From: a virus
Strand: one strand, 5' to 3'
DNA length: 40,899 nt
Virus record (IMG/VR): IMGVR_UViG_3300035071_000024
Location: 1-40,899 of that record
The translations under genes and the position numbers were made by a program. Below are positions 5,627 to 24,298 of the stretch, one piece after another. The notes beneath the pieces were generated by a model. It was not told where the DNA came from, did no database searches, and was given only the letters and a program-made list of their open reading frames with translations. Positions within the stretch are counted from its first letter, which is position 1. The number at the start of each line of letters is the position of its first letter.

Positions 5627-6012
5627 GAGAAATTCTCCGGGTCCAAGCTCTCTCCCGGGTCGAGAGCGCCGACGCGGGTGATAAATTGTTCCATCTGCGC
5701 CTTCGTCTTGAAGCCGATCCAAGTCCACCCGAAAATGGTCGCGTTGCCAGAGCGCCATTCGGCGTCATCGGCCCAAATCGAACCTTCCTTGCCGAATGTT
5801 TTGCGAAGCCAGTCAAAAATCTCGCGCCAACTGTCGCTGTTGATGTTGCCTGTTTTGACGTCGATCATCCACGGCGTCCGCGTCCAAAGCTCGCGCATGA
5901 AAGCGTCGTGTTCGCTAGCGCTGCTGTTGAAGGCCATGACGCTGGCGTAAAGAGGAGTCGTTTCAGGGAGCCCGAGCGCATGGCGCGCGAGTTCGCGTTG
6001 CTCTGGGGTCAT
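5623..6012 (-). CDS. Hypothetical protein
   Basis: 129 residues. Starts with MTPEQRELARHALGLP, a small helical opening common in phage early proteins, then strand-rich sequence with many aromatics (ATIFGWTWIGFKTKAQ). ATGA overlap with the DUF5131 gene upstream and GTGA overlap with the next gene downstream. No Cys clusters or membrane segments. Not recognised. Confidence 0.75.
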   Translation of the reverse strand: MTPEQRELARHALGLPETTPLYASVMAFNSSASEHDAFMRELWTRTPWMIDVKTGNINSDSWREIFDWLRKTFGKEGSIWADDAEWRSGNATIFGWTWIGFKTKAQMEQFITRVGALDPGESLDPENFS

Positions 6013-7127
6013 GCGCGCGCCTCCGGGAAGTCGTTGTGCTCGCGGCCGTCGAGCAGGCGGCCGGCGCGGGACTTGCCGACGCGCAGCATAGTCGCGCCAG
6101 AGGATAGGTGCTCAAAACGATAACCAGCGCCTTTCGCGAGCTGCGCTGCTTCCTCGAAGGTCAGCGGCCGGTGAGGATCATAATCAAGGCCGTAGGCCTG
6201 AAACTCTCCGAAGTTTGTCAGGTGACGCAGCCACGCGTCCGCGTCGATCCACTCGCCGTTCTGCTTGTGGAAATAGGCGATCGCATTCGCTGCGCAAAAG
6301 CTTCTTGTGGCGCGCGCCCATGCGGTGACGGCAATTCGCGCATCTCGCCCGCTCTCCCCTCCAAAGATGATTTGATTGACGAACTCCCATCCGCGCCAGT
6401 TGACCGGCCCAAGCGCCGGTTCATAGCTCACGAATTTCACGGCGGCGGGTGTCGCTTCGAAATCCTCTCGGCGCTCGTCGGCGCGTGGCTGATCTTCGGC
6501 CGTCACGCCGAGCCATAAGCCAGGCAGACCATCAGTCAGCCACCCCAAAACGGAAAAAGGAGCATTCATCCAAAACGGATGTCCGGCAAGTCGTGAAACA
6601 TTTCGGATGCTCTGCGCAAAGCGATGATCAAGAAAGGCGGAGAGATCGCCTTTCGCAAGGTCGACAATACCTGAAATATATTGACGCATCCGATGTGGAC
6701 GTTTCGTCAACAGTTGGAAATCATGGTGCGCCTTGTAACCGATGATCACACTTTGATCATCGGTTTTTCTTCCAGCGCAAAGCGCCATGACCGCGAAGAC
6801 GCGGTCGATCCATTCGTCTGGGACAAAATCCGCGAACAGGTCTGTCATTGAGCAGACGAAAATGCGGCGCGGGCGTTTCCAGCGTAGCGGCTGCAACAGC
6901 TGGTGCTCATGCAGAAAAAGCTCAATGTCGTCGCGGTGGCCTGGCTTGTATGGGAGACCGGTTCCGCCGGTCGCGCCTGGCTTTATGTTGAGCCTTTCGG
7001 AATAGCAGTTAGCGCAGGCTGGCGAGACTTTTTCGCAATGCCAGCCTGGCTTGCCCGTCTCACGGTTGCGTGCGCGGATCGGGTTTATCGTCGCATCGGT
7101 CCATTCGATCTTGCTGTTAGCGGCCAT
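6009..7127 (-). CDS. DUF5131 (phage Gp37/Gp68 family) protein
   Basis: 372 residues from the ATG at 7127, where the family opening AANSKIEWTDATINPI begins; the frame extends further upstream but that part is antisense-like. A conserved Cys cluster CEKVSPACANC (Cys31, Cys38, Cys41, spacing CX6CX2C) near the N-terminus resembles an iron-sulfur or radical-type site. Further family motifs are IFVCSMTDLFADFVP, LLTKRPHRM, GLWLGVTAEDQ, KFVSYEPALGPV and IIFGGESG. The family is widespread in phages, but its reaction is not established to my knowledge. It shares the operon with ASCH, DUF4326 and a DNA methylase. Confidence 0.92.
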   Translation of the reverse strand: MAANSKIEWTDATINPIRARNRETGKPGWHCEKVSPACANCYSERLNIKPGATGGTGLPYKPGHRDDIELFLHEHQLLQPLRWKRPRRIFVCSMTDLFADFVPDEWIDRVFAVMALCAGRKTDDQSVIIGYKAHHDFQLLTKRPHRMRQYISGIVDLAKGDLSAFLDHRFAQSIRNVSRLAGHPFWMNAPFSVLGWLTDGLPGLWLGVTAEDQPRADERREDFEATPAAVKFVSYEPALGPVNWRGWEFVNQIIFGGESGRDARIAVTAWARATRSFCAANAIAYFHKQNGEWIDADAWLRHLTNFGEFQAYGLDYDPHRPLTFEEAAQLAKGAGYRFEHLSSGATMLRVGKSRAGRLLDGREHNDFPEARA

Positions 7128-7323
7128 CGGCGCCGCTCCGGATTTCCGCGACGATCTTTGCGACGTCGGCGACCTCGCAGCTTTCATGCGTCGAATCGTA
7201 GGAGCAGATATCAACGGCGATCTGCTCGTCGGACCAATCGTCGAAGCAGTAGCCGTTGTCTCTCGCGCGATCGATCGCCGCTTGGACGCTGGCGCGCGTC
7301 GGCTTGTCGAGCTGCTCGCTCAT
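7117..7323 (-). CDS. Small acidic hypothetical protein
   Basis: 68 residues (MSEQLDKPTRASVQAAIDRA onward), acidic, with WSDEQIAVDICSYD in the middle. It overlaps the DUF5131 start by 11 bp and the next gene upstream by 4 bp. Small acidic phage proteins can be inhibitors or DNA mimics, but there is no direct sign of that here. Confidence 0.68.
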   Translation of the reverse strand: MSEQLDKPTRASVQAAIDRARDNGYCFDDWSDEQIAVDICSYDSTHESCEVADVAKIVAEIRSGADGR

Positions 7324-7812: not shown

Positions 7813-8102
7813 GCGCCTCTCCCCGGCAGGGTCTCTCGCGCATCGGGAAGGCTGTCGAGATAGGCGTCGAGCGAGGCGACGCTCACCAAGACGAGCAAGG
7901 TCCCCGCGCGCTTCGCCGAGATCGTGCCTTCCGCGATCAGCATGTCGAGCTTCGAGCGGCTGCAGCCGATATATTTGGCGGCTTCGTCCTTTCGCAGCAC
8001 GCGTGGTCGCAGTTGCACGATCGCCGCCGGATCGGCGTCTATGGCGAGGATATGGGCGCTCATCGCTATCGGGCTCCGCTTGGTTTCAATTTGCTGTCTC
8101 AC
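7809..8102 (-). CDS. HTH protein, excisionase / AlpA-like DNA-binding domain
   Basis: 97 residues from GTG 8102 (GTGA overlap with the ParB-like gene), or 84 from an internal ATG at 8063. The core LRKDEAAKYIGCSRSKLDML, followed by IAEGTISAKRAG and SVASLDAYLDSLP, is the winged helix-turn-helix of the excisionase/HTH_17 group. In a prophage with a tyrosine integrase, this is the best candidate recombination directionality factor, promoting excision, though such proteins can also be transcription regulators. It is transcribed from the early leftward promoter, far from int. Confidence 0.75.
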   Translation of the reverse strand: MRQQIETKRSPIAMSAHILAIDADPAAIVQLRPRVLRKDEAAKYIGCSRSKLDMLIAEGTISAKRAGTLLVLVSVASLDAYLDSLPDARETLPGRGA

Positions 8103-10111
8103 GCCGGCGCTCCTTCCGTGTTCTCAATTGCCCTCTCGATCGGCGTCTTGCGCGGGCCGCGCTTTTTGCCCTTGCTCTTGCCCCCCTGACCGCTCGACTT
8201 GTTCGCGTCTCGCTCTGCGCCAGCGCAACCGCTCGACGCCTCGTCTTTTTCGATCGCGTCGCGCATGGCCTCGGCGAGCGGCTCCTGGCGCTCGGAGTAG
8301 ATCGCGTCGTCGAGCGCGCCGGGACGCGCGGGAAAGTCCGACCAAGCGCTGAAGGGCGGCGGGAGATGGCCCTGCTCTTTCGAGAGCGTCGCGGCGTGCT
8401 GGGCGAGCTTGTCCTTTTTCCAGCCCTTCACGCGCGCCGCCTCGGCCGGGCCGATCAGCGCGCCGACGATGCGCGCCGTGCGCTCCTTTTCGGCGGCCTC
8501 GAAATAGCCGCGGCGGTCGATGTTGCGCTCGAGCGCGCCGGCGACGTCGCCGCCGCGCGCTGCGACGGCGCGGAACAGGACGCCGATCTCATCGAAGCCT
8601 AAGCCCCCCGTCTCGATCGCGGCGGCCATGATCCGCGCGAAGGCGACGGTGAGATCGCAGGTCGAGGCCTCGGCGCATCCGGCGAGCGCGTCCTGGAAGG
8701 CGAGCGGCCGGATGCGCTTCAGGAGGTCATTGTCTTCGGGATCGCGCGACTGCACGGGCCGCAGGCCGAGCCCGACGACGCCATATTGGCAGCCGAGCGC
8801 CGCCACCGCGAGCATCATGGCGATGTCCGGCCGGGCCCGCACGGCGTCGCGCAGCGCATGGGTCGCGCCGGCGTCGATGACGGCGCGAAGCTGCTTGCCC
8901 GGTTCGCCGAGCGGGGTTTTTTCGGCGCCCGGCGAAAGCTTCTCCCCGCTCTCGCCGGCCGCCGCGTCTGGCGCTGCGGCGGCCGGCTGGTTGTCCGCTC
9001 GCTCCGGGCTAGCCCGACCGCTCGCGGATTGTGCGGCTTCGTCGGGGAGCGCGACGCCGCGTGTGAGATAAATCTCGCCTCCGCAGTCGAGGTCGGCGCG
9101 CACGCCATAGTCTGCGCGATCGTCGACGGTCGACAGGATGGCCTCGCGCTCGGCCGTGAGTTTTTTGCGCTTGGCCTTCGTGCATTCGCCGGCGAGCTCG
9201 CGCGCGATCTCGTCGAGGCGACCCTTCTCCTCGTCCGACAGGAAGAATTGATCGAAACCGCCCTCGTCCTCTCCCGCGAAGGCATGGCCCCAGCCTTCCG
9301 CCTCGGCGAACCGCAAGGCTTCGGCGCGCAGGAAGTCCATGGCGATGCGCCGGGCGATCGAGGGGTCTTGCAGGCCTGGCTGCTCGGAGAACAAATCCTC
9401 CATCAGGCGGCCGCCTGCTCCGCGATAGACCTCGAGCCGCCCCGGATCGGCGCAGAGGAACTTCGCGACAGGATCGCTCGCGACCATCGTATCGCCGCGC
9501 AGCGCCGCACGGATGGTGGTGGGGTGATTGAGGCTTCCTGACCCGCGCTTCGCCCAATCGTCGAGCAAGGCCTCCTGCGCGGCGAGCGGCGCGATCGTAT
9601 AGGCCTCGGCCGAATCGCGCGTGATCTCGCCCTTGCGCCACAGCTCGCGCACGCGCGGCGAGAGCGCCCCGAGCGCCAGGCGCTGGCGGACATGGCGCTC
9701 GGTCTCGCCGAAGTCTCTGGCGATGTCCGCGACGGTCTTGCCGTGCTGCTCGACGAGCTGCGAGAAGCGCTCGAATTCGTCGACGGGATGCTTGGTGTGA
9801 GGCGTTACGGAAAGCGTAAGAGCGAGTTGCAGCGCGTCGGCCTCGGAGCCGTCGAAAATCTCGACGGCGGGATACTTCTCGTCAGCATGACCGGAGAGGC
9901 CCTCGCAAAGCAGCCGAAGCGCGCGCCAGCGCCTGCCGCCGTCGAGCACCTCGTATTCTCCCGCCGCGTCAGGGCGCTCGCGCACGGTCAGCGGATATTG
10001 CATGCCGATCGCGCGGATTGTCGCGGCGAGCGATGAGACGTCGCTCACCATGTCCTGATTGGGATTGAGCGGCGAGATGCGGGTGATTTTGGAAAGAGAT
10101 AGCGTGGTCAT
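8099..10111 (-). CDS. ParB-like nuclease-domain protein, large
   Basis: 670 residues. The N-terminus has the ParB/Sulfiredoxin-like domain: NPNQDMVSDVSSLAATIRAI, then YPLTVRERP and YEVLDGGRRWRAL (GGRRWRAL at 58-65). An HTH follows at about 125-155 (VADIARDFGETERHVRQRLA). The remaining 500 residues are helical with an Ala/Pro/Glu-rich linker near 370-410 and a Lys/Gly-rich basic tail. Related large ParB-like proteins occur in alphaproteobacterial plasmids and phages. No ParA ATPase is visible in the window, so partition is unlikely to be its whole job; a regulatory or DNA-binding role in early infection is possible. It ends in a GTGA overlap with the HTH gene. Confidence 0.9.
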   Translation of the reverse strand: MTTLSLSKITRISPLNPNQDMVSDVSSLAATIRAIGMQYPLTVRERPDAAGEYEVLDGGRRWRALRLLCEGLSGHADEKYPAVEIFDGSEADALQLALTLSVTPHTKHPVDEFERFSQLVEQHGKTVADIARDFGETERHVRQRLALGALSPRVRELWRKGEITRDSAEAYTIAPLAAQEALLDDWAKRGSGSLNHPTTIRAALRGDTMVASDPVAKFLCADPGRLEVYRGAGGRLMEDLFSEQPGLQDPSIARRIAMDFLRAEALRFAEAEGWGHAFAGEDEGGFDQFFLSDEEKGRLDEIARELAGECTKAKRKKLTAEREAILSTVDDRADYGVRADLDCGGEIYLTRGVALPDEAAQSASGRASPERADNQPAAAAPDAAAGESGEKLSPGAEKTPLGEPGKQLRAVIDAGATHALRDAVRARPDIAMMLAVAALGCQYGVVGLGLRPVQSRDPEDNDLLKRIRPLAFQDALAGCAEASTCDLTVAFARIMAAAIETGGLGFDEIGVLFRAVAARGGDVAGALERNIDRRGYFEAAEKERTARIVGALIGPAEAARVKGWKKDKLAQHAATLSKEQGHLPPPFSAWSDFPARPGALDDAIYSERQEPLAEAMRDAIEKDEASSGCAGAERDANKSSGQGGKSKGKKRGPRKTPIERAIENTEGAPA

Positions 10112-13043: not shown

Positions 13044-13373
13044 ATGAAGCTTGCCGATTACCTGGAGAAAAATGAAATCGACCAAGCGTCCTTCGCGAAG
13101 GCGCTGGGGGTCACCAAAAAGGCTGTCCAATTCTGGGTTGGAGGAGAGCGTCATCCGCGTCTCGAACAAATGCAAAAAATCGCTGAAGCGACGAAGGGTG
13201 AGGTTATGCCAAACGATTTCCTTTCCTTTCGCGCCGAAGGATCTTGCGAAACGTCCATCGCGCGGGCAGCCCAAGAGGCGCGCTCCCAAGAGATGAACGC
13301 GGCGGCCGGGGACGCAGAACCCACCCCGACCGCCGATCGCGCCAACCCCCATTATCCCGAGGCGGCGGAATGA
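13044..13373 (+). CDS. Cro-like HTH regulator (YdaS/Cro type)
   Basis: 109 residues. The HTH lies at about 5-55: LADYLEKNEIDQASFAKALG, then VTKKAVQFWVGGERHPRLEQ and MQKIAEATKGEV. The ATG at 13044 is only a few bases from the expected transcription start and lacks a Shine-Dalgarno sequence, which suggests a leaderless message. The C-terminal 50 residues are Ala/Pro-rich and probably disordered; their last part (ADRANPHYPEAAE) is encoded by a junction sequence that recurs twice downstream. It should bind the GAAC-N5-GTTC operators and oppose the repressor during lytic growth. ATGA overlap with the next gene. Confidence 0.85.
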   Translation: MKLADYLEKNEIDQASFAKALGVTKKAVQFWVGGERHPRLEQMQKIAEATKGEVMPNDFLSFRAEGSCETSIARAAQEARSQEMNAAAGDAEPTPTADRANPHYPEAAE

Positions 13374-13494
13374 ATGGCGCCCGCAACCTCCGATCGCCAA
13401 CCCCTTTCATCGCGGGGACACATATGATGCAGGGCATCCTAGACTCCTTTTTGATTGGTCTCTGGCGCGCGATCTGCGCGGCGGAGCGGCGCGC
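13346..13494 (+). repeat. Direct repeat, copy A (149 bp)
   Basis: Identical base for base to 14052-14200 (706 bp apart). It covers the last codons of the cro-like gene, the ATGA junction and the first 41 or so codons of the following gene. The two proteins therefore share an N-terminus and then diverge. Confidence 0.95.
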
Positions 13495-13789
13495 TGGGGG
13501 CGCGTCTCGAACGCGATGCGCGGGGGCCCGTATGAGCGGCGCACGAGAGCTTCAAAACATGACGCGAGAGCAGCGACTGGAAATGCTTCGGAAATTTGCC
13601 GAAAGCGAACCAGGGCCGAAACGCGCGGCTGCTTCTGGCCAGCCGCGCCGCGCGCCATCGTGCGGCCTCAAGTGTTGTGGCGATGCAGGATTTCAACCTT
13701 TTTCCGAATTTGGACGAGCGTTGAAAGATATGTGGCGCCGCATCCGTCATAGCTTTTTACCTGCTCGAAATCGCGGAGAAGGGCGATGA
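13370..13789 (+). CDS. Hypothetical protein sharing its N-terminus with the gene at 14076
   Basis: 139 residues from ATG 13370 (ATGA overlap with cro); a start at an internal MMQGILDSF is possible. The first 41 residues (MNGARNLRSPTPFIAGTHMM, then QGILDSFLIGLWRAICAAER) match the gene at 14076 exactly because of the 149-bp repeat. Past that it differs: a helical piece (MTREQRLEMLRKFAESEPGP) and a basic Cys-containing tail. The last 122 bases overlap a minus-strand gene, so the true 3' end may be damaged or shorter. Confidence 0.5.
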   Translation: MNGARNLRSPTPFIAGTHMMQGILDSFLIGLWRAICAAERRAGGASRTRCAGARMSGARELQNMTREQRLEMLRKFAESEPGPKRAAASGQPRRAPSCGLKCCGDAGFQPFSEFGRALKDMWRRIRHSFLPARNRGEGR

Positions 13790-13930: not shown

Positions 13931-14078
13931 GGAAACGCGCCGGGGCTGTTTGCGAATCGCAGCCCCGGCGCACGCCTAAGATACATGCAGCGGCGTGCGC
14001 CGTTGCGGCGGCCGGGGACGCGAGACCTGCCCCGCCCGCCGATCGCGCCCGCCCCCATTATCCCGAGGCGGCGGAATG
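13931..14078 (-). repeat. Junction repeat, copy B, with leader hairpin
   Basis: 148 bp aligning without gaps to 14796-14943, with 17 differences by hand count. It contains a 12-bp stem GCGCCGGGGCTG / CAGCCCCGGCGC (13937-13948, 13960-13971). It lies upstream of a minus-strand small gene and ends at the plus-strand ATGA junction. In minus-strand sense the order is TATC-like box, hairpin, GTTTCC, ribosome site, ATG. Confidence 0.85.
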
Positions 14079-14200
14079 AATGGCGCCCGCAACCTCCGAT
14101 CGCCAACCCCTTTCATCGCGGGGACACATATGATGCAGGGCATCCTAGACTCCTTTTTGATTGGTCTCTGGCGCGCGATCTGCGCGGCGGAGCGGCGCGC
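14052..14200 (+). repeat. Direct repeat, copy B (149 bp)
   Basis: Second copy of the identical 149-bp repeat (first copy 13346-13494). Together with the overlapping junction repeat it bounds the cassette 13495-14051. Confidence 0.95.
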
Positions 14201-14561
14201 GGAAGCGCGCCGGAAGCAGGCGGCGGAAACTGCGCTCGCGCCGCAGGCGCTTGCGCGTTGGGCGACGTTCGAAAGCCTATGGCCATGCACGCCGCGCGAA
14301 TCCAAGCGCGCACGCGCGACTTTCTTGGCGCTATCAGAAGATGCGCAGGCGCAGGCCATCGAATGCGCGCCGGCTTATATCGCCAACCGCCAATCGCGCC
14401 ATTATCGAATTCGCCCCGCGCAATATTGGCTCGAAGCGGAAGGATGGAAATTTATCCGTCCCGCGAATTTGCGCGGTCGCATAAATCCCGCAGTCGGCGG
14501 CGATAGCCCCAGTGTTCCGGGTCAGAGCTCTCTCGCTCCAGCGTGCGGATCCGGAAAATGA
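14076..14561 (+). CDS. Protein with replication-initiator-like C-terminal domain
   Basis: 161 residues. The N-terminal 41 are identical to the gene at 13370. From about 60 to 130 the pattern W-TFESLWP, then ATFLALSEDAQAQAIECAPA, YIANR and YWLEAEGWKFI matches the C-terminal domain of the replication protein encoded at 23270 (W-AFRKLWP, VFLRLSVVEQGAAIDAAPGY, WLKGEGW). It lacks that protein's N-terminal HTH domain. It may modulate replication by competing for the initiator's partner, or be a leftover of recombination. The last 110 bases overlap a minus-strand gene. Start: ATGA junction within the repeat. Confidence 0.7.
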   Translation: MNGARNLRSPTPFIAGTHMMQGILDSFLIGLWRAICAAERRAEARRKQAAETALAPQALARWATFESLWPCTPRESKRARATFLALSEDAQAQAIECAPAYIANRQSRHYRIRPAQYWLEAEGWKFIRPANLRGRINPAVGGDSPSVPGQSSLAPACGSGK

Positions 14562-14795: not shown

Positions 14796-14943
14796 GGAAA
14801 TGCGCCGGGGCTGCAGGCGAATCGCGGCCCCAGCGCACGCCCAGGATACATGCGGCGCTCTTCGCCGTTGCGGCGGCCGGGGACGCGAGACCTGCCCCGC
14901 CCGCCGATCGCGCCAACCCTCACTATCCCGAGGCGGCGGAATG
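14796..14943 (-). repeat. Junction repeat, copy C, with leader hairpin
   Basis: Aligns to 13931-14078 at a constant offset of 865. The hairpin is kept (GCGCCGGGGCTGC at 14802-14814 pairing with GCGGCCCCAGCGC) with one mismatch and one G-U pair on the + strand. Copy C ends at the ATGA start of the gene at 14941, after which similarity stops. Confidence 0.82.
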
Positions 14944-15792
14944 AGCGACGCGCGGGGCTGCATGAGCAAAAGGTCCTTTTCCCTTAATCATATGAGGCTT
15001 CAGGTGACGCTCGCTCGCGCCCAGAGATTTCAGGACCGCAAGAGCGCCCCGCCTGGTGCGGAAAGTCGTCCGATCCCGATCGCCTATGGCCCCCCTCGGA
15101 AGATTTGGACGCCCGATTTCACGCATCGCGTGGCCCCTGCCTATATCGAAGCCAAATGGGTTGGCACGACGTTGCACCCGCGCAGCGGAAACCCGGTGCT
15201 GCTGCTGCAAACGCCGGGTGGTGAGATGCGCTTTCACCTTTCGCCGTCCTGCGGCGCGAGCATCGTCGAAGAGGGCGCCGACTTTTGGCTTCATCGGAGC
15301 TTGATAAGCTCCCATTCGGTGAGCTCTGCGGGGATCCCGCATCGCGAGGGATCGCATCCGGACGAAGGCCTGCGCGTATACCCCAAGATCAATTTCTCCA
15401 CCGCCGTTTGTGGTGAAGAATATGAGCCCAGCGGCGTCCCATCGAACATCGGACGCCAGCGGCCACGGAAGCCCCGTATTTCGAATATTCCGCATCGGCT
15501 CTCAAATCTCCAAAAAACCTGCATGTCGTGGCTCCGAGGACTTTGTGAAAAGCTCGGCATTCTCGGCCGTCGCGCCAGCCGCGTCAAAAGCGCAGCGCAA
15601 CAGGTCCCGACCGGAGAAGGCCGCCGCGCCGTCGCGGCCGATCTCTGCGCCCGCATTTCCCGCGATCTCGGCGCGCTGCGCTTCCTCTGCGACGAGGCGG
15701 GGCTCGACGCGGAAGAAGATTTCATCGCTGAGGCGATTTCCGAGTTTGAGGATCTCTCCGCGCGTCTCGCTGAGACCGCGAAGTGGGGTTGA
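14941..15792 (+). CDS. Hypothetical protein
   Basis: 283 residues from ATG 14941 at the third ATGA junction. The first half carries strand-rich sequence (AYIEAKWVGTTLHPRSGNPV, LLLQTPGGEMRFHLSP), and the last 90 residues are helical and acidic (LDAEEDFIAEAISEFEDLSA). The middle (about 125-190) is low in recognisable structure, so this could be two genes fused or a frame-damaged gene, with an alternative internal start at 15523 that has no ribosome site. No family recognised. A hairpin follows the stop directly. Confidence 0.6.
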   Translation: MSDARGCMSKRSFSLNHMRLQVTLARAQRFQDRKSAPPGAESRPIPIAYGPPRKIWTPDFTHRVAPAYIEAKWVGTTLHPRSGNPVLLLQTPGGEMRFHLSPSCGASIVEEGADFWLHRSLISSHSVSSAGIPHREGSHPDEGLRVYPKINFSTAVCGEEYEPSGVPSNIGRQRPRKPRISNIPHRLSNLQKTCMSWLRGLCEKLGILGRRASRVKSAAQQVPTGEGRRAVAADLCARISRDLGALRFLCDEAGLDAEEDFIAEAISEFEDLSARLAETAKWG

Positions 15793-17964: not shown

Positions 17965-18263
17965 GCGCCGCCGCATTGAGCGACATGGCGCGCAAGGTGA
18001 TGTCAGTCGATGGCGTTCTGCGCCGGATTGATCTTGGCGCGCTCGATCGCGCGACCATCGCCACGGTCGTCGCGGAGCAATTGAGCGATGATGAATTCGA
18101 CGCATTGACCGGCGCGCAGGCGAAGGCCGTGTCGCTGCGACGGCTCGGGCTGACATCCGTGCAATGCGCGGATGCGCTGGAGATCAATCAGACGGCGGTC
18201 AATCATTATCTCGCCGCGGCCGCGAAGCGCGGCGTCGTCGTCGAGCGGGAGCGCGCCGCGTGA
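17961..18263 (+). CDS. HTH-like protein, tandem paralogue of the preceding C-terminal domain
   Basis: 100 residues from GTG 17961. ATVVAEQLSDDEFDALTGAQ, then VSLRRLGLTSVQCADALEIN and QTAVNHYLAAAAKRG has a helix-turn-helix pattern. It is similar to residues 121-195 of the upstream protein and ends identically. A 26-bp stretch spanning the stop/start junction (17941-17966 and 18240-18265) is identical, so the domain arose by tandem duplication or was homogenised by gene conversion. Likely a regulator or replication accessory protein. Confidence 0.75.
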   Translation: MSAAALSDMARKVMSVDGVLRRIDLGALDRATIATVVAEQLSDDEFDALTGAQAKAVSLRRLGLTSVQCADALEINQTAVNHYLAAAAKRGVVVERERAA

Positions 18264-19354
18264 GCAAGCCGCGCCGGCGCAGCCATGCCGTCGCCGCCCT
18301 GCCGCCGCCCGAGGATGCGGCGTCGGAGAGCTATGCCGAGAGCGGCGTCGCCTTTTACGACGCGGCGATCGCGGCGCTCTCGACCGCGACGCTCGCCGAA
18401 TCGAAAGAAATGCTGGCGAAGGGAGAATCCGTCGAGCTCTTCGCCAAGAGCGCGCGCAACCCAGAACTGCTCGATCGCGCGGTCGCCGTCTCGCTCGCCG
18501 CACAGCGACGCGCGGGGGAATTGCTGCGGCGGATGGCGGACGATGGCGAGCGAGAGACGCGCGGCGGCGATCGAAAATCAAAGTCGCGCGAAAAGACTTT
18601 GATCACGCTTGAGTCGCTCGGCGTGACGAAGACGCAATCGCAGAAATGGCAGCAGCTCGCGGGCTTGTCGAAGCCCGATTTCGAAGAGCGCGTCGCCGAG
18701 CGCCAGAAGGAGGCGCGGCGCGCCCTCGACGGCTCACGCGCCGAGCGCCAGGCGGAGAAGAAGAAACGCCGCCAAGAGCGCGAGCAAGAGCTTGCTGAAA
18801 ATATTCGCGCGCTGCCCAGCAAAAAATACGGCGTGATCTATGCGGACCCGGAATGGCGTTTCGAGACATTCTCGCGCGAAACGGGCCTCGATCGCGCGGC
18901 GGATAATCACTATCCGACGTCGAGCTTGGAAGAGATTTGCGCGCGCGACGTCGGCTCGATTGCGGCGGATGATTGCGTGCTCTTTTTGTGGGTGACGGGG
19001 CCGATGCTGGCGAATGGCGCGTTCCTGCGCGTGCTGGAGGCATGGGGCTTCGAAGGCAAGTCGCGCTTCGTATGGGGAAAGGAAATCCCCGGCAATGGCT
19101 ATTGGGTGATCGATGATGCGGAAGAGCTGATCATCGCGACGCGCGGGAATGTCCCGTGCCCGGCGATGGGCGATCAGTTCCGCGCGCTGCAATGCGTCGC
19201 CAAGACCGATCATTCCGCCAAGCCGGAGCGCTTCGCCGAAATCATCGAAAGCTATTTCCCCAATCTTCCAAAGATCGAACTCAATCGGCGCGGTCCGCCG
19301 CGGCCGGGCTGGGATGCTTGGGGGAATGAGGCGGAAGAAGGAGAGCAGCCATGA
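18260..19354 (+). CDS. MT-A70 family adenine methyltransferase with DPEW motif
   Basis: 364 residues from GTG 18260, which uses the duplicated GTGA junction. Residues 1-180 are helical and charged (AFYDAAIAALSTATLAESKE, then a ParB-like piece VSLAAQRRAGELLRRM and a Lys/Arg/Glu-rich coiled coil). The methylase domain starts at about 185: YADPEWRFE (DPEW at 196-199, where the usual MT-A70 motif is DPPW), AADNHYPTSSLEEI, DDCVLFLWVTGPM, ATRGNVPCP, KPERFAEIIESYFPN. It should methylate adenine N6 in DNA. Role: probably protection from restriction, or epigenetic control of phage genes. Confidence 0.92.
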   Translation: MSKPRRRSHAVAALPPPEDAASESYAESGVAFYDAAIAALSTATLAESKEMLAKGESVELFAKSARNPELLDRAVAVSLAAQRRAGELLRRMADDGERETRGGDRKSKSREKTLITLESLGVTKTQSQKWQQLAGLSKPDFEERVAERQKEARRALDGSRAERQAEKKKRRQEREQELAENIRALPSKKYGVIYADPEWRFETFSRETGLDRAADNHYPTSSLEEICARDVGSIAADDCVLFLWVTGPMLANGAFLRVLEAWGFEGKSRFVWGKEIPGNGYWVIDDAEELIIATRGNVPCPAMGDQFRALQCVAKTDHSAKPERFAEIIESYFPNLPKIELNRRGPPRPGWDAWGNEAEEGEQP

Positions 19355-22173: not shown

Positions 22174-22610
22174 AAGCCGGCGCGCCTAAGATCCTCATCG
22201 ACGCTCAGATCGCCGCCGTCTCTCTCGCCGCGCAAATCGCGCATGCCGGCGCGGGTTATCGCGGCGAAAGCGTCCTGCCGGCGCATGCCAGCGCGCTCGA
22301 TGCGGCGGCGCGCACGCTCGCATGGGTGCGAGATAATGCGGCGCCGTTGCGCAAGATGGCGCGCGGCGCGAGCGAAAAAGCCCGTTTCGCTGATCTGCCG
22401 CTTGCCCAGCAATCGGCGCTGCGCTGCGCTGATGCGCGCTTCCAGAAGTTCGTGAACGCCGGCGACGCCGACGCGGCGGCCGCCGCCGTGCGGCGCGTCT
22501 GTGGGGTCGAGAGCCGCGCCGAATTCGACAAGGACTCTGGCGCAGCGGCGCTGTGGCGACGTCTCGACGCCGAATTCGAAGGATGGCTGCGCGGGGTTGG
22601 CGACGCATGA
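22170..22610 (+). CDS. Hypothetical Ala-rich helical protein
   Basis: 146 residues, mostly helix (ILIDAQIAAVSLAAQIAHAG, SALDAAARTLAWVRDNAAPL), with a conserved-looking end (LWRRLDAEFEGWLRG). No motif recognised. ATGA overlaps on both sides place it in the replication operon. Confidence 0.75.
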   Translation: MKAGAPKILIDAQIAAVSLAAQIAHAGAGYRGESVLPAHASALDAAARTLAWVRDNAAPLRKMARGASEKARFADLPLAQQSALRCADARFQKFVNAGDADAAAAAVRRVCGVESRAEFDKDSGAAALWRRLDAEFEGWLRGVGDA

Positions 22611-22969
22611 TCGAAGGCTTTTTTCGCCTCGTCGAGGATATCGCGCTACGCGAGCGCATCGATCCTGTGTGGCTCGCGGGCAAGCGGACCAATCCGCCGC
22701 TCCTCGCGCGATTGCGCGACGAGGTGATCGCCGACGCGCTGTGGCGCGGCTTCGGCTCCTGGGATGTCATGGCCTGCCTCGGCTGGCGCAACCGCGTGTG
22801 TCTATTCGAGGCGGCCGCGCGGGGCGCGGCCGCCTCGGCCGCGAGGCGCAGGCCGATGAATGCCGCGCGCGGGCGCGTCTGGCCAAAAAAGAAGCCGACT
22901 GGCGGCGGGAGGCGGCCTGATGCGCGTGATGCTGCACAAGTTCGGCCCGAAGGCTGTGAGCGCGGATGA
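22607..22969 (+). CDS. Hypothetical protein, possibly frameshifted
   Basis: 120 residues from ATG 22607 (ATGA overlap). The first 65 or so (MIEGFFRLVEDIALRERIDP, then LRDEVIADALWRGFGSWDVM) look well formed, with an HTH-like middle. Past a GC-rich palindrome near 22815-22840 the frame becomes a basic, low-quality tail and overruns the next gene by 50 bases. In the -1 frame the sequence instead gives ECRARARLAKKEADWRREAA with a TGA that forms a TGATG junction with the next start at 22920. A frameshift, by mutation, sequencing error or programmed slip, is suspected. Confidence 0.6.
   Translation: MIEGFFRLVEDIALRERIDPVWLAGKRTNPPLLARLRDEVIADALWRGFGSWDVMACLGWRNRVCLFEAAARGAAASAARRRPMNAARGRVWPKKKPTGGGRRPDARDAAQVRPEGCERG
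22815..22843. repeat. GC-rich palindrome inside the suspected frameshift region
   Basis: Within this stretch the sequence GCGGCCGCG, CGGGG, CGCGGCCGC gives a 9-bp inverted repeat. Such a hairpin could provoke a sequencing or replication slip, or stimulate ribosomal frameshifting. Boundaries are approximate. Confidence 0.5.
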
Positions 22970-23273
22970 CGATTTGCATATCCATACCGCCTCACCTTGG
23001 GTTCATCGGAGGCGGTGTCGCGCCAGGCTATCCAGTGGTGAACGAAGATTGCTCGTTCTACTCGCCGCGAACCATGGGCGGGGCGTGAGCCATGCGGAGA
23101 TCGTCGATGCGTTGTTTCATGACGACCCGAACGGCGGCCCGGATGACGCGCGTGGGAGCGTCGGGAAAATGATCGCGACTTTGCGCATGTCAGGCCCTGC
23201 TCTCGGCTTCAGGATCACGAACGAGCACGGCATCGGCTTCCGCCTGGAGCTCATCGATGCGGGTGGCGCATGA
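22920..23273 (+). CDS. Winged-helix DNA-binding protein (OmpR/PhoB C-terminal type)
   Basis: 117 residues from ATG 22920. LSSGERRLLVLLAANHGRGV, then SHAEIVDALFHDDPNGGPDD, GKMIATLR and LGFRITNEHGIGFRLE follow the response-regulator winged-helix pattern, including the terminal GIGFRL hairpin. No receiver domain is present, so it is a stand-alone DNA binder. It sits just before the replication initiator and may regulate that gene or assist at the origin. ATGA overlap with the initiator start. Confidence 0.83.
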   Translation: MRVMLHKFGPKAVSADDDLHIHTASPWVHRRRCRARLSSGERRLLVLLAANHGRGVSHAEIVDALFHDDPNGGPDDARGSVGKMIATLRMSGPALGFRITNEHGIGFRLELIDAGGA

Positions 23274-24298
23274 GCTTCGCGGCGCTCAACTGGGCTTGCG
23301 CGATCCGCGATCCGAACGTCTCGGCAGGCGCGCGGCATGTGCTGCTGGCCATGGCGCAATTCGCCGATGAAGCGCAGACCTGCTACCCCTCGCACGCCTA
23401 TCTCGCCGCCGTCACCAATCTGTCGGAAGACACGATTCAGCGGCGCGTGCGCGACCTGGTCGAGCTCGGCCTGCTTTACGTCGTAAAGCGCAAGAATAAT
23501 GATGGGCGGCGGCTCACGAATTACTATGTTTTACTTGTCGATGAACGCGCGAAGGCCCACGCGATCGCGCATGGCTGGTCGCCGGCGACGGCGCGCGACG
23601 GCGCGCAGGATGGGCTTGCGGAAGACGCGGAAAGCGAGACGGTCCAACCCGCAGGCTGCGGGTTGGACCAAGCCGCAGGGGAAACGGAGCCATGCCGCAG
23701 GGGAAACGAAACCATGCCGCAACTGTGCGGCATAGAACCATCAAATAACCATCAAGGAACCTACCCCCCTACCCCCCAGCGGGGGGAGGGAGGGGGAAGC
23801 GCTGCGCGCAAGCTCTCCGATGACGATGAGGCTCGCCTCGAGCGTTGGGAGGCGTTCCGTAAGCTCTGGCCATGGGACGTGACGGAGCTCGTCGCTGAAG
23901 CGCGCGGCGTGTTCCTGCGGCTCTCCGTCGTCGAGCAGGGCGCCGCCATCGACGCAGCGCCCGGCTACATCGCGGGCTGTCGGGAGCGCAAGACGACCGC
24001 GCGCAACCACGGCATTGCGCATGCGGTGAAATGGCTCAAGGGCGAGGGGTGGCTGGCGGCAAAGGCGCGCAGCGTCGAAAGCGCGGCGTCTCTGGCCGGG
24101 CAGCCTTTCATGGTCCGCCAAGGATCGCCACAAGCGGCGGCATGGGCCCAATACGAAACCGCGGTCTACGGCGCGCCACGGCTGAAGTTCATCCCGTCGA
24201 AGGCCTACGGAATGGCATGCATGCGGCCGACGGAATGGCCGCCTCGGCGAGAGGCCGCTGAAGGCGCGCGCGACGGGCCGGCGCAAGGCGCGGCTTGA
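23270..24298 (+). CDS. Replication initiator, two-domain (HTH plus C-terminal domain)
   Basis: 342 residues. The N-terminal winged HTH of phage replication proteins is at about 1-90 (LNWACAIRDPNVSAGARHVL, CYPSHAYLAAVTNLSEDTIQ, RRVRDLVELGLLYVVKR). A low-complexity linker at about 120-185 is encoded by an iteron-like repeat block, and the C-terminal domain at about 190-270 (WEAFRKLWPWDV, VFLRLSVVEQGAAIDAAPGY, WLKGEGWLAA) recurs in the protein at 14076. The layout matches lambda O-type initiators, where the origin lies in the linker-coding DNA and the C-terminal part recruits a replication partner. The stop overlaps a TTG start of the next gene. Confidence 0.88.
   Translation: MSFAALNWACAIRDPNVSAGARHVLLAMAQFADEAQTCYPSHAYLAAVTNLSEDTIQRRVRDLVELGLLYVVKRKNNDGRRLTNYYVLLVDERAKAHAIAHGWSPATARDGAQDGLAEDAESETVQPAGCGLDQAAGETEPCRRGNETMPQLCGIEPSNNHQGTYPPTPQRGEGGGSAARKLSDDDEARLERWEAFRKLWPWDVTELVAEARGVFLRLSVVEQGAAIDAAPGYIAGCRERKTTARNHGIAHAVKWLKGEGWLAAKARSVESAASLAGQPFMVRQGSPQAAAWAQYETAVYGAPRLKFIPSKAYGMACMRPTEWPPRREAAEGARDGPAQGAA
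23641..23795. other. Candidate intragenic replication origin
   Basis: In order: a perfect 13-bp inverted repeat GGTCCAACCCGCA / TGCGGGTTGGACC with a 3-base loop (23641-23669); two 22-bp direct repeats starting GCCGCAGGGGAAACG (23672-23693 and 23694-23715, 2 differences); a 6-bp inverted repeat GCCGCA / TGCGGC (23716-23731); two AACCATCAA repeats 11 bases apart in an AT-richer stretch (23736-23744, 23747-23755); and a C6/G6 inverted repeat near 23773-23787. The block lies in the linker of the initiator gene, as in lambda-type origins. Function is inferred. Confidence 0.65.

Follow-up and report, generated by a model that had tools for sequence, protein, structure and literature searches.

The window, i.e. 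the whole 40,899-base IMG/VR record analyzed here, carries integrase, terminase, portal and head genes, and therefore represents a temperate phage. It also contains a DUF5131 gene (6009-7214, - strand), a ParB-like gene (8099-10111, - strand) and an MT-A70 methyltransferase gene (18164-19354, + strand). One of its genes encodes an O-like replication initiator (Table 1), the N-terminus of which matches the Pfam family PF13730 (HTH_36) with an E-value of 6.8e-12, and the PHROG replication initiation families 1032, 270 and 391 with E-values of 2.6e-16, 9.6e-16 and 3.7e-15, respectively. In the AlphaFold model of the protein, residues 1-100 form a winged-helix domain predicted with confidence, residues 111-177 form a disordered linker, and the C-terminal domain is helical. 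Pfam search of the initiator returned HTH_36 and no lambda O family, and a PDB sequence search gave no match; the protein falls outside the family of lambda O itself. The initiator gene is directly followed by a NusG-type antitermination gene, and the window genes scanned include none recognizable as a replicative helicase, primase or P-like loader. The C-terminal domain would contact the helicase or a helicase loader. A second copy of this domain (corresponding to residues 189-268, 41% identity, E 4e-10) is encoded by an ORF at 13995-14561 on the + strand, in which no HTH domain was detected. This ORF overlaps or adjoins long direct repeats that form two pairs, of 95% and 89% identity (13299-13504, 13931-14079, 14005-14209 and 14796-14944), suggesting a duplicated module.

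The DNA encoding the disordered linker harbors four iterons, with CCGCA cores at 23649, 23673, 23695 and 23717 that are spaced by 24, 22 and 22 bp, and the array occupies about nucleotides 372-466 of the initiator gene. Iterons 1 and 4 are palindromic, and iterons 2 and 3 have one half-site each. An earlier note on this DNA had listed a 13-bp perfect inverted repeat, which corresponds to iteron 1; the repeat is present, but its arms are 14 bp long, and by length it ranks among the top three perfect inverted repeats with a loop <=10 in the 40.9-kb window. The note's pair of adjacent 22-bp repeats proved to be iterons 2 and 3 of the four-copy array, with 22-bp units that are 86% identical, and its GCCGCA inverted repeat is iteron 4, the inner inverted repeat of which, ATGCCGCA-actg-TGCGGCAT, spans 23714-23733. 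The two repeats assigned to an AT-richer stretch were likewise recovered, in an A-rich tract with an AT content of about 58%, compared to 33% for the gene, and so was the C/G inverted repeat beyond it. GC skew singles out no origin in the window.

Table 1. Initiator gene and elements of the candidate origin, in positions of the window
Feature	Position	Strand	Basis or detail
O-like replication initiator gene, 342 aa, HTH_36 N-terminus	23270..24298	+	PF13730 and PHROG matches
Putative recognition helix, residues 53-65	23426..23464	+	AlphaFold helix at high confidence; D[ST][VI]QR motif tracks TGCCGCA iterons; partial Mantel
Disordered linker, coding part (residues 111-177), houses the candidate origin	23600..23800	+	pLDDT <50
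Iteron 1, perfect 14-bp inverted repeat, 1 nt between arms, core CCCGCAggcTGCGGG	23641..23669	.	Repeat analysis
Iteron 2, AGCCGCA half-site, 22-bp unit	23668..23689	+	
Iteron 3, ATGCCGCA half-site, 22-bp unit	23690..23711	+	
Iteron 4, palindromic copy CCATGCCGCA-actg-TGCGGCATAG, adjoins the A-rich element	23712..23735	.	
A-rich putative unwinding element	23736..23761	+	AACCATCAA at 23736-23744 and 23747-23755 (11 bp apart), GGAACC at 23756-23761
C-run/G-run inverted repeat (CCCCCCTACCCCCCAGCGGGGGGAGGGAGGGGG)	23764..23796	.	Kept in L164 and L165, weaker in L166
C-terminal helical domain, coding part (residues 183-325)	23816..24244	+	Structure model

Iterons 2, 3 and 4 encode AAGETE, PCRRGNE and TMPQL, respectively. 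As 22 is not a multiple of three, the three copies lie in three frames, so that the DNA repeats and the peptide does not. With protein and codon usage fixed, an inverted repeat as long as that of iteron 1 arose in only one of 1000 synonymous-codon shuffles (p = 0.001), and a tandem repeat this strong in none of 1000 (p < 0.001). Folded as single-stranded DNA, the region lies 5.2 standard deviations below dinucleotide shuffles.

When 2.9 million viral contigs were scanned, without protein information, for copies of CCATGCCGCA spaced by 22-24 bp, 39 loci were recovered, nine of which have a spacing of 22 or 23 bp, i.e. not a multiple of three. Seven of the nine lie in the linkers of HTH (O-like) initiators: one near-identical contig, two full-length relatives (L117 = L164 and L132 = L166), three of the Tardiphaga type, and L147, a weak match (E 0.005). 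The other two, L123 and L124, share an identical intergenic sequence and were not counted as support; they contain several TGCCGCA copies, two of them at 22-bp spacing (near 10263 in L123 and near 6579 in L124), with an integrase-like gene on one side and a small DNA-binding-protein-like ORF on the other, and these repeats are possibly recombinase or excisionase sites. Most loci with 24-bp spacing only are alanine-rich or other protein repeats, with L115 as an O-like exception, and were not counted either. No usable O-like relative emerged from synteny around the terminase and NusG-like genes; seven distant initiators, once aligned, proved too diverse to serve as a scanning query, and the matches of a pattern scan of 385 alphaproteobacterial genomes were scattered. 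The sole match of single-protein scans, a 99.4%-identical contig, has no change in the gene and thus provides no test of conservation. Compared to the near-identical contig L003, about 30 differences cluster at 22424-22837 and end at a 31-bp GC palindrome (22807-22837); this edge is likely a recombination boundary, with the initiator gene just downstream free of differences to L003.

The relatives L164, L165 and L166 keep both the array and the A-rich word. The core spacing is exactly 24/22/22 in L164 and 54/22/22 in L166, and the last three copies are kept in the partial L165. The core of iteron 1 reads TGCCGCAgatTGCGGCA in L164 and thus differs on both arms from that of the window, so that the symmetry is kept; iteron 4 of L166, ACCGCA-actg-TGCGGT, is also changed on both arms. 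A palindromic iteron 4 beside the A-rich element is found in all three relatives and in Tardiphaga L005. Among codons of unchanged residues in relatives that are 42-63% identical, those inside the element are identical more often than those outside: 26/28 versus 53/99 in L165 (p = 1e-4), 20/23 versus 55/108 in L166 (p = 0.002) and 14/18 versus 68/133 in L164 (p = 0.04), corresponding to 78-93% inside and 51-54% outside. As the closest diverged relative shares 28 of 30 linker residues, constraint acts on the peptide as well as on the DNA, with an additional component on the DNA; the earlier proposal that the DNA rather than the protein is conserved is therefore right about the extra constraint on the DNA, but not about a protein free to vary. 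Repeats that vary freely among relatives and neutral synonymous sites, named in the earlier note as evidence against an origin, were not what we found, as synonymous identity is raised in the element and the layout of the array is kept.

We extended the comparison to 66 non-redundant O-like genes with N-termini at most 60% identical, taking 94 neighboring genes as controls. Significant linker iterons, defined as a tandem repeat with a period of 18-26 bp at p <= 0.01 by codon shuffle, were detected in 41 of the 66 O-like genes, compared to 2 of the 94 controls. The mode of the period is 22, all 41 repeats fall at codons 93-187, and lambda was recovered as a positive control. The layout is not universal, as 18 of the 66 genes show no significant linker repeat at p <= 0.05; four of six further phages fetched later have a linker repeat at p < 0.01. 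The HTH_36 O-like genes on secondary replicons of Azospirillum (L006, L007, L017-L063) were regarded as another use of the fold and left aside; those tested carry neither significant linker repeats nor the AACC word described below, and the genes of L006 and L007 adjoin plasmid replication and partition genes.

The type of iteron varies together with the helix at residues 53-65. Among 94 unique O-like genes, all eight with the motif D[ST][VI]QR have 3-6 copies of TGCCGCA/TGCGGCA and the other 86 have 0 or 1, a comparison biased by the fact that several of the eight were found by the iteron scan. For L005, L194 and L195, which came from protein searches only (the queries for the latter two included iteron-found sequences), the contrast is 3/3 versus 0/86 (p = 9e-6). 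Moreover, in a partial Mantel analysis across 48 genes, helix identity remained correlated with iteron similarity after accounting for the remainder of the domain (partial r 0.26, 0/2000 permutations as high), while that remainder contributed little after accounting for the helix (r 0.06, p = 0.06). These data support the binding of iterons by the N-terminal helix, and suggest that the DNA-reading helix of an initiator predicts the repeats that it binds; for the present protein, we infer that helix 53-65 reads the iterons.

A second conserved element lies downstream of the iterons. In the stretch 15-45 nt past the array, AT content exceeds the codon-shuffle expectation (p = 9e-8, 48 genes), with the A-rich side on the coding strand. 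In an unbiased 6-mer count 3' of the iterons, TAGAAC and AGAACC came out on top, the latter present in 35 of 66 genes against 8.7 expected. The word then counted, AACC[ATG]TCA/AACCACCA/AACC[AT][GA]TCA/AACCTGTCA, occurs 64 times 3' of the iterons, whereas codon shuffles yield 10 (max 20) and dinucleotide shuffles 1.3 (max 4); these counts overstate the enrichment because the word was defined after seeing the sequences. Elsewhere in the genes it was counted five times, and the opposite strand has none. The copies of AACC(A/T)..TCA, usually 11-13 bp apart, lie in all three frames (37/15/12) and are translated as EPS, NHQ or TI, depending on the gene. Three of the six later phages carry the word in the right place, and lambda has none.

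In lambda, four iterons at nt 349-433 of gene O, spaced by 20, 24 and 23 bp, are followed by an AT-rich tract (PMC5043065). The four iterons of the window occupy an equivalent position within its initiator gene, followed by a tract that is A-rich on the coding strand; the parallel to lambda O drawn in the earlier note thus holds in layout. However, the iteron sequence differs, two of the four copies are half-sites whereas those of lambda are inverted repeats of ~19 bp, and the A-rich tract carries AACC words. In addition, the initiator gene is followed by a NusG-like gene, with no P gene recognized next door, unlike the O/P module of lambda. At ori-lambda, O dimers bind the iterons, the adjacent AT-rich tract opens and P brings DnaB (PMC5043065, PMC7466680).

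On these sequence comparisons, region 23641-23796 is very probably the theta-type, lambda-type intragenic origin of the phage, located inside its own initiator gene, and would work like ori-lambda with an initiator from outside lambda O's family. Weighing against this reading are the half-sites of iterons 2 and 3, an A-rich tract of only about 58% AT, the lack of a recognizable helicase, primase or loader gene among those scanned, and the O-like genes without a significant linker repeat. The winged-helix N-terminus would bind the four TGCCGCA-type iterons via helix 53-65, and the initiator-iteron complex would bend and open the A-rich AACCATCAA stretch just downstream. The C-terminal domain would then bring in the host replicative helicase, unless a host loader takes over this recruitment.

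It is very unlikely that the O-like protein or a neighbor binds the repeats only to repress or tune its own transcription, with replication starting elsewhere. Iteron-type initiators often autoregulate, and Foldseek indicated that the N-terminal fold also resembles transcriptional regulators; however, no sigma-70-like site is found near the array, which lies some 370 bp into the gene and is followed by an A-rich tract with a conserved word, an equivalent layout is a proven origin in lambda, and the AT trend of the 48-gene family is not expected of an operator. Even less probable is a function of the hairpins as a terminator, attenuator or antitermination site tied to the adjacent NusG-like gene. 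The position of that gene and the strong predicted fold (z -5.2, with DNA parameters) would suit such a function, but no T-run follows the hairpins on the + strand, and the one terminator-like match overlapping iteron 4 is on the - strand, in a region total of two that is within the shuffle expectation. Moreover, it would leave unexplained the direct repeats at about two helical turns and their covariation with a DNA-reading helix. Least credible of all is selection on the low-complexity linker peptide instead of the DNA, which would fit the conservation of that peptide but not copies placed in three frames by the 22-bp spacing, repeats lost in peptide-preserving codon shuffles, constrained synonymous sites (equal divergence inside and outside was refuted with four relatives), a linker to which AlphaFold gives no structure, or an AACC word with three different readings.

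Beyond an origin in this phage, we tentatively suggest, as a possibility not quite amounting to a probability, that intragenic phage origins share a second element: tandem AACC(A/T/G)(N)TCA words, 11-13 bp apart on the coding strand, directly 3' of initiator-specific iterons, and conserved across phages of alpha- and gamma-proteobacteria despite differing iterons. The element might be a strand-specific site that holds the opened DNA for helicase loading, with replicon specificity set by the divergence of helix-iteron pairs. Searches of an open-access library yielded no description of it, which does not prove that there is none. In Bacillus subtilis, the DnaD recognition element is a strand-specific motif in the unwound region by the initiator boxes, and is proposed to direct helicase loading; it differs from the AACC element in consisting of TnnT pairs and belonging to a chromosomal origin (PMC10201434). 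The DnaD N-terminal domain is a weak structural neighbor of the window initiator, and a functional link between the two elements is only a suggestion.

Origins are unannotated in most phage genomes. If the proposed reading is true, sequence alone would suffice to locate the origin of many temperate phages, and a few residues of one helix to predict the iteron type, providing a testable recognition code for the winged-helix family. One DNA stretch would be under two simultaneous constraints, coding and putative binding, and a shared putative unwinding element is indicated in many phages.

Distant initiators with their own intragenic iterons were already known from phage L and P22. The initiators encoded by gene 18 of P22 and gene 18 of phage L are distantly related and each has its own intragenic iterons, reported from sequence inspection and genetics (PMC8022706); covariation, synonymous constraint and control genes were examined in the present analysis. 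Similar to the window, Mesorhizobium phage vB_MseS-P1 (L107) and Rhizobium phage PPF1 (L106) have an O-like gene followed by a NusG-type antiterminator, and the gene order of vB_MseS-P1 also includes HNH and small terminase. Both have linker repeats with a 23-bp period, that of PPF1 being not significant alone, and their iterons differ from those of the window (AGGGTGACACCGG in vB_MseS-P1). The O-like gene on a 99.8-kb plasmid record of Tardiphaga sp. 709 (L005, NZ_CP135530.1) shares the iteron word ACCATGCCGCA at 23-bp spacing, and has a near-palindromic last copy and an AACC-type A-rich stretch, as in the window, but encodes a different C-terminal domain. Given this O-like gene with its iterons and AACC stretch, the plasmid is possibly a phage-plasmid or one that relies on an origin of the phage type.
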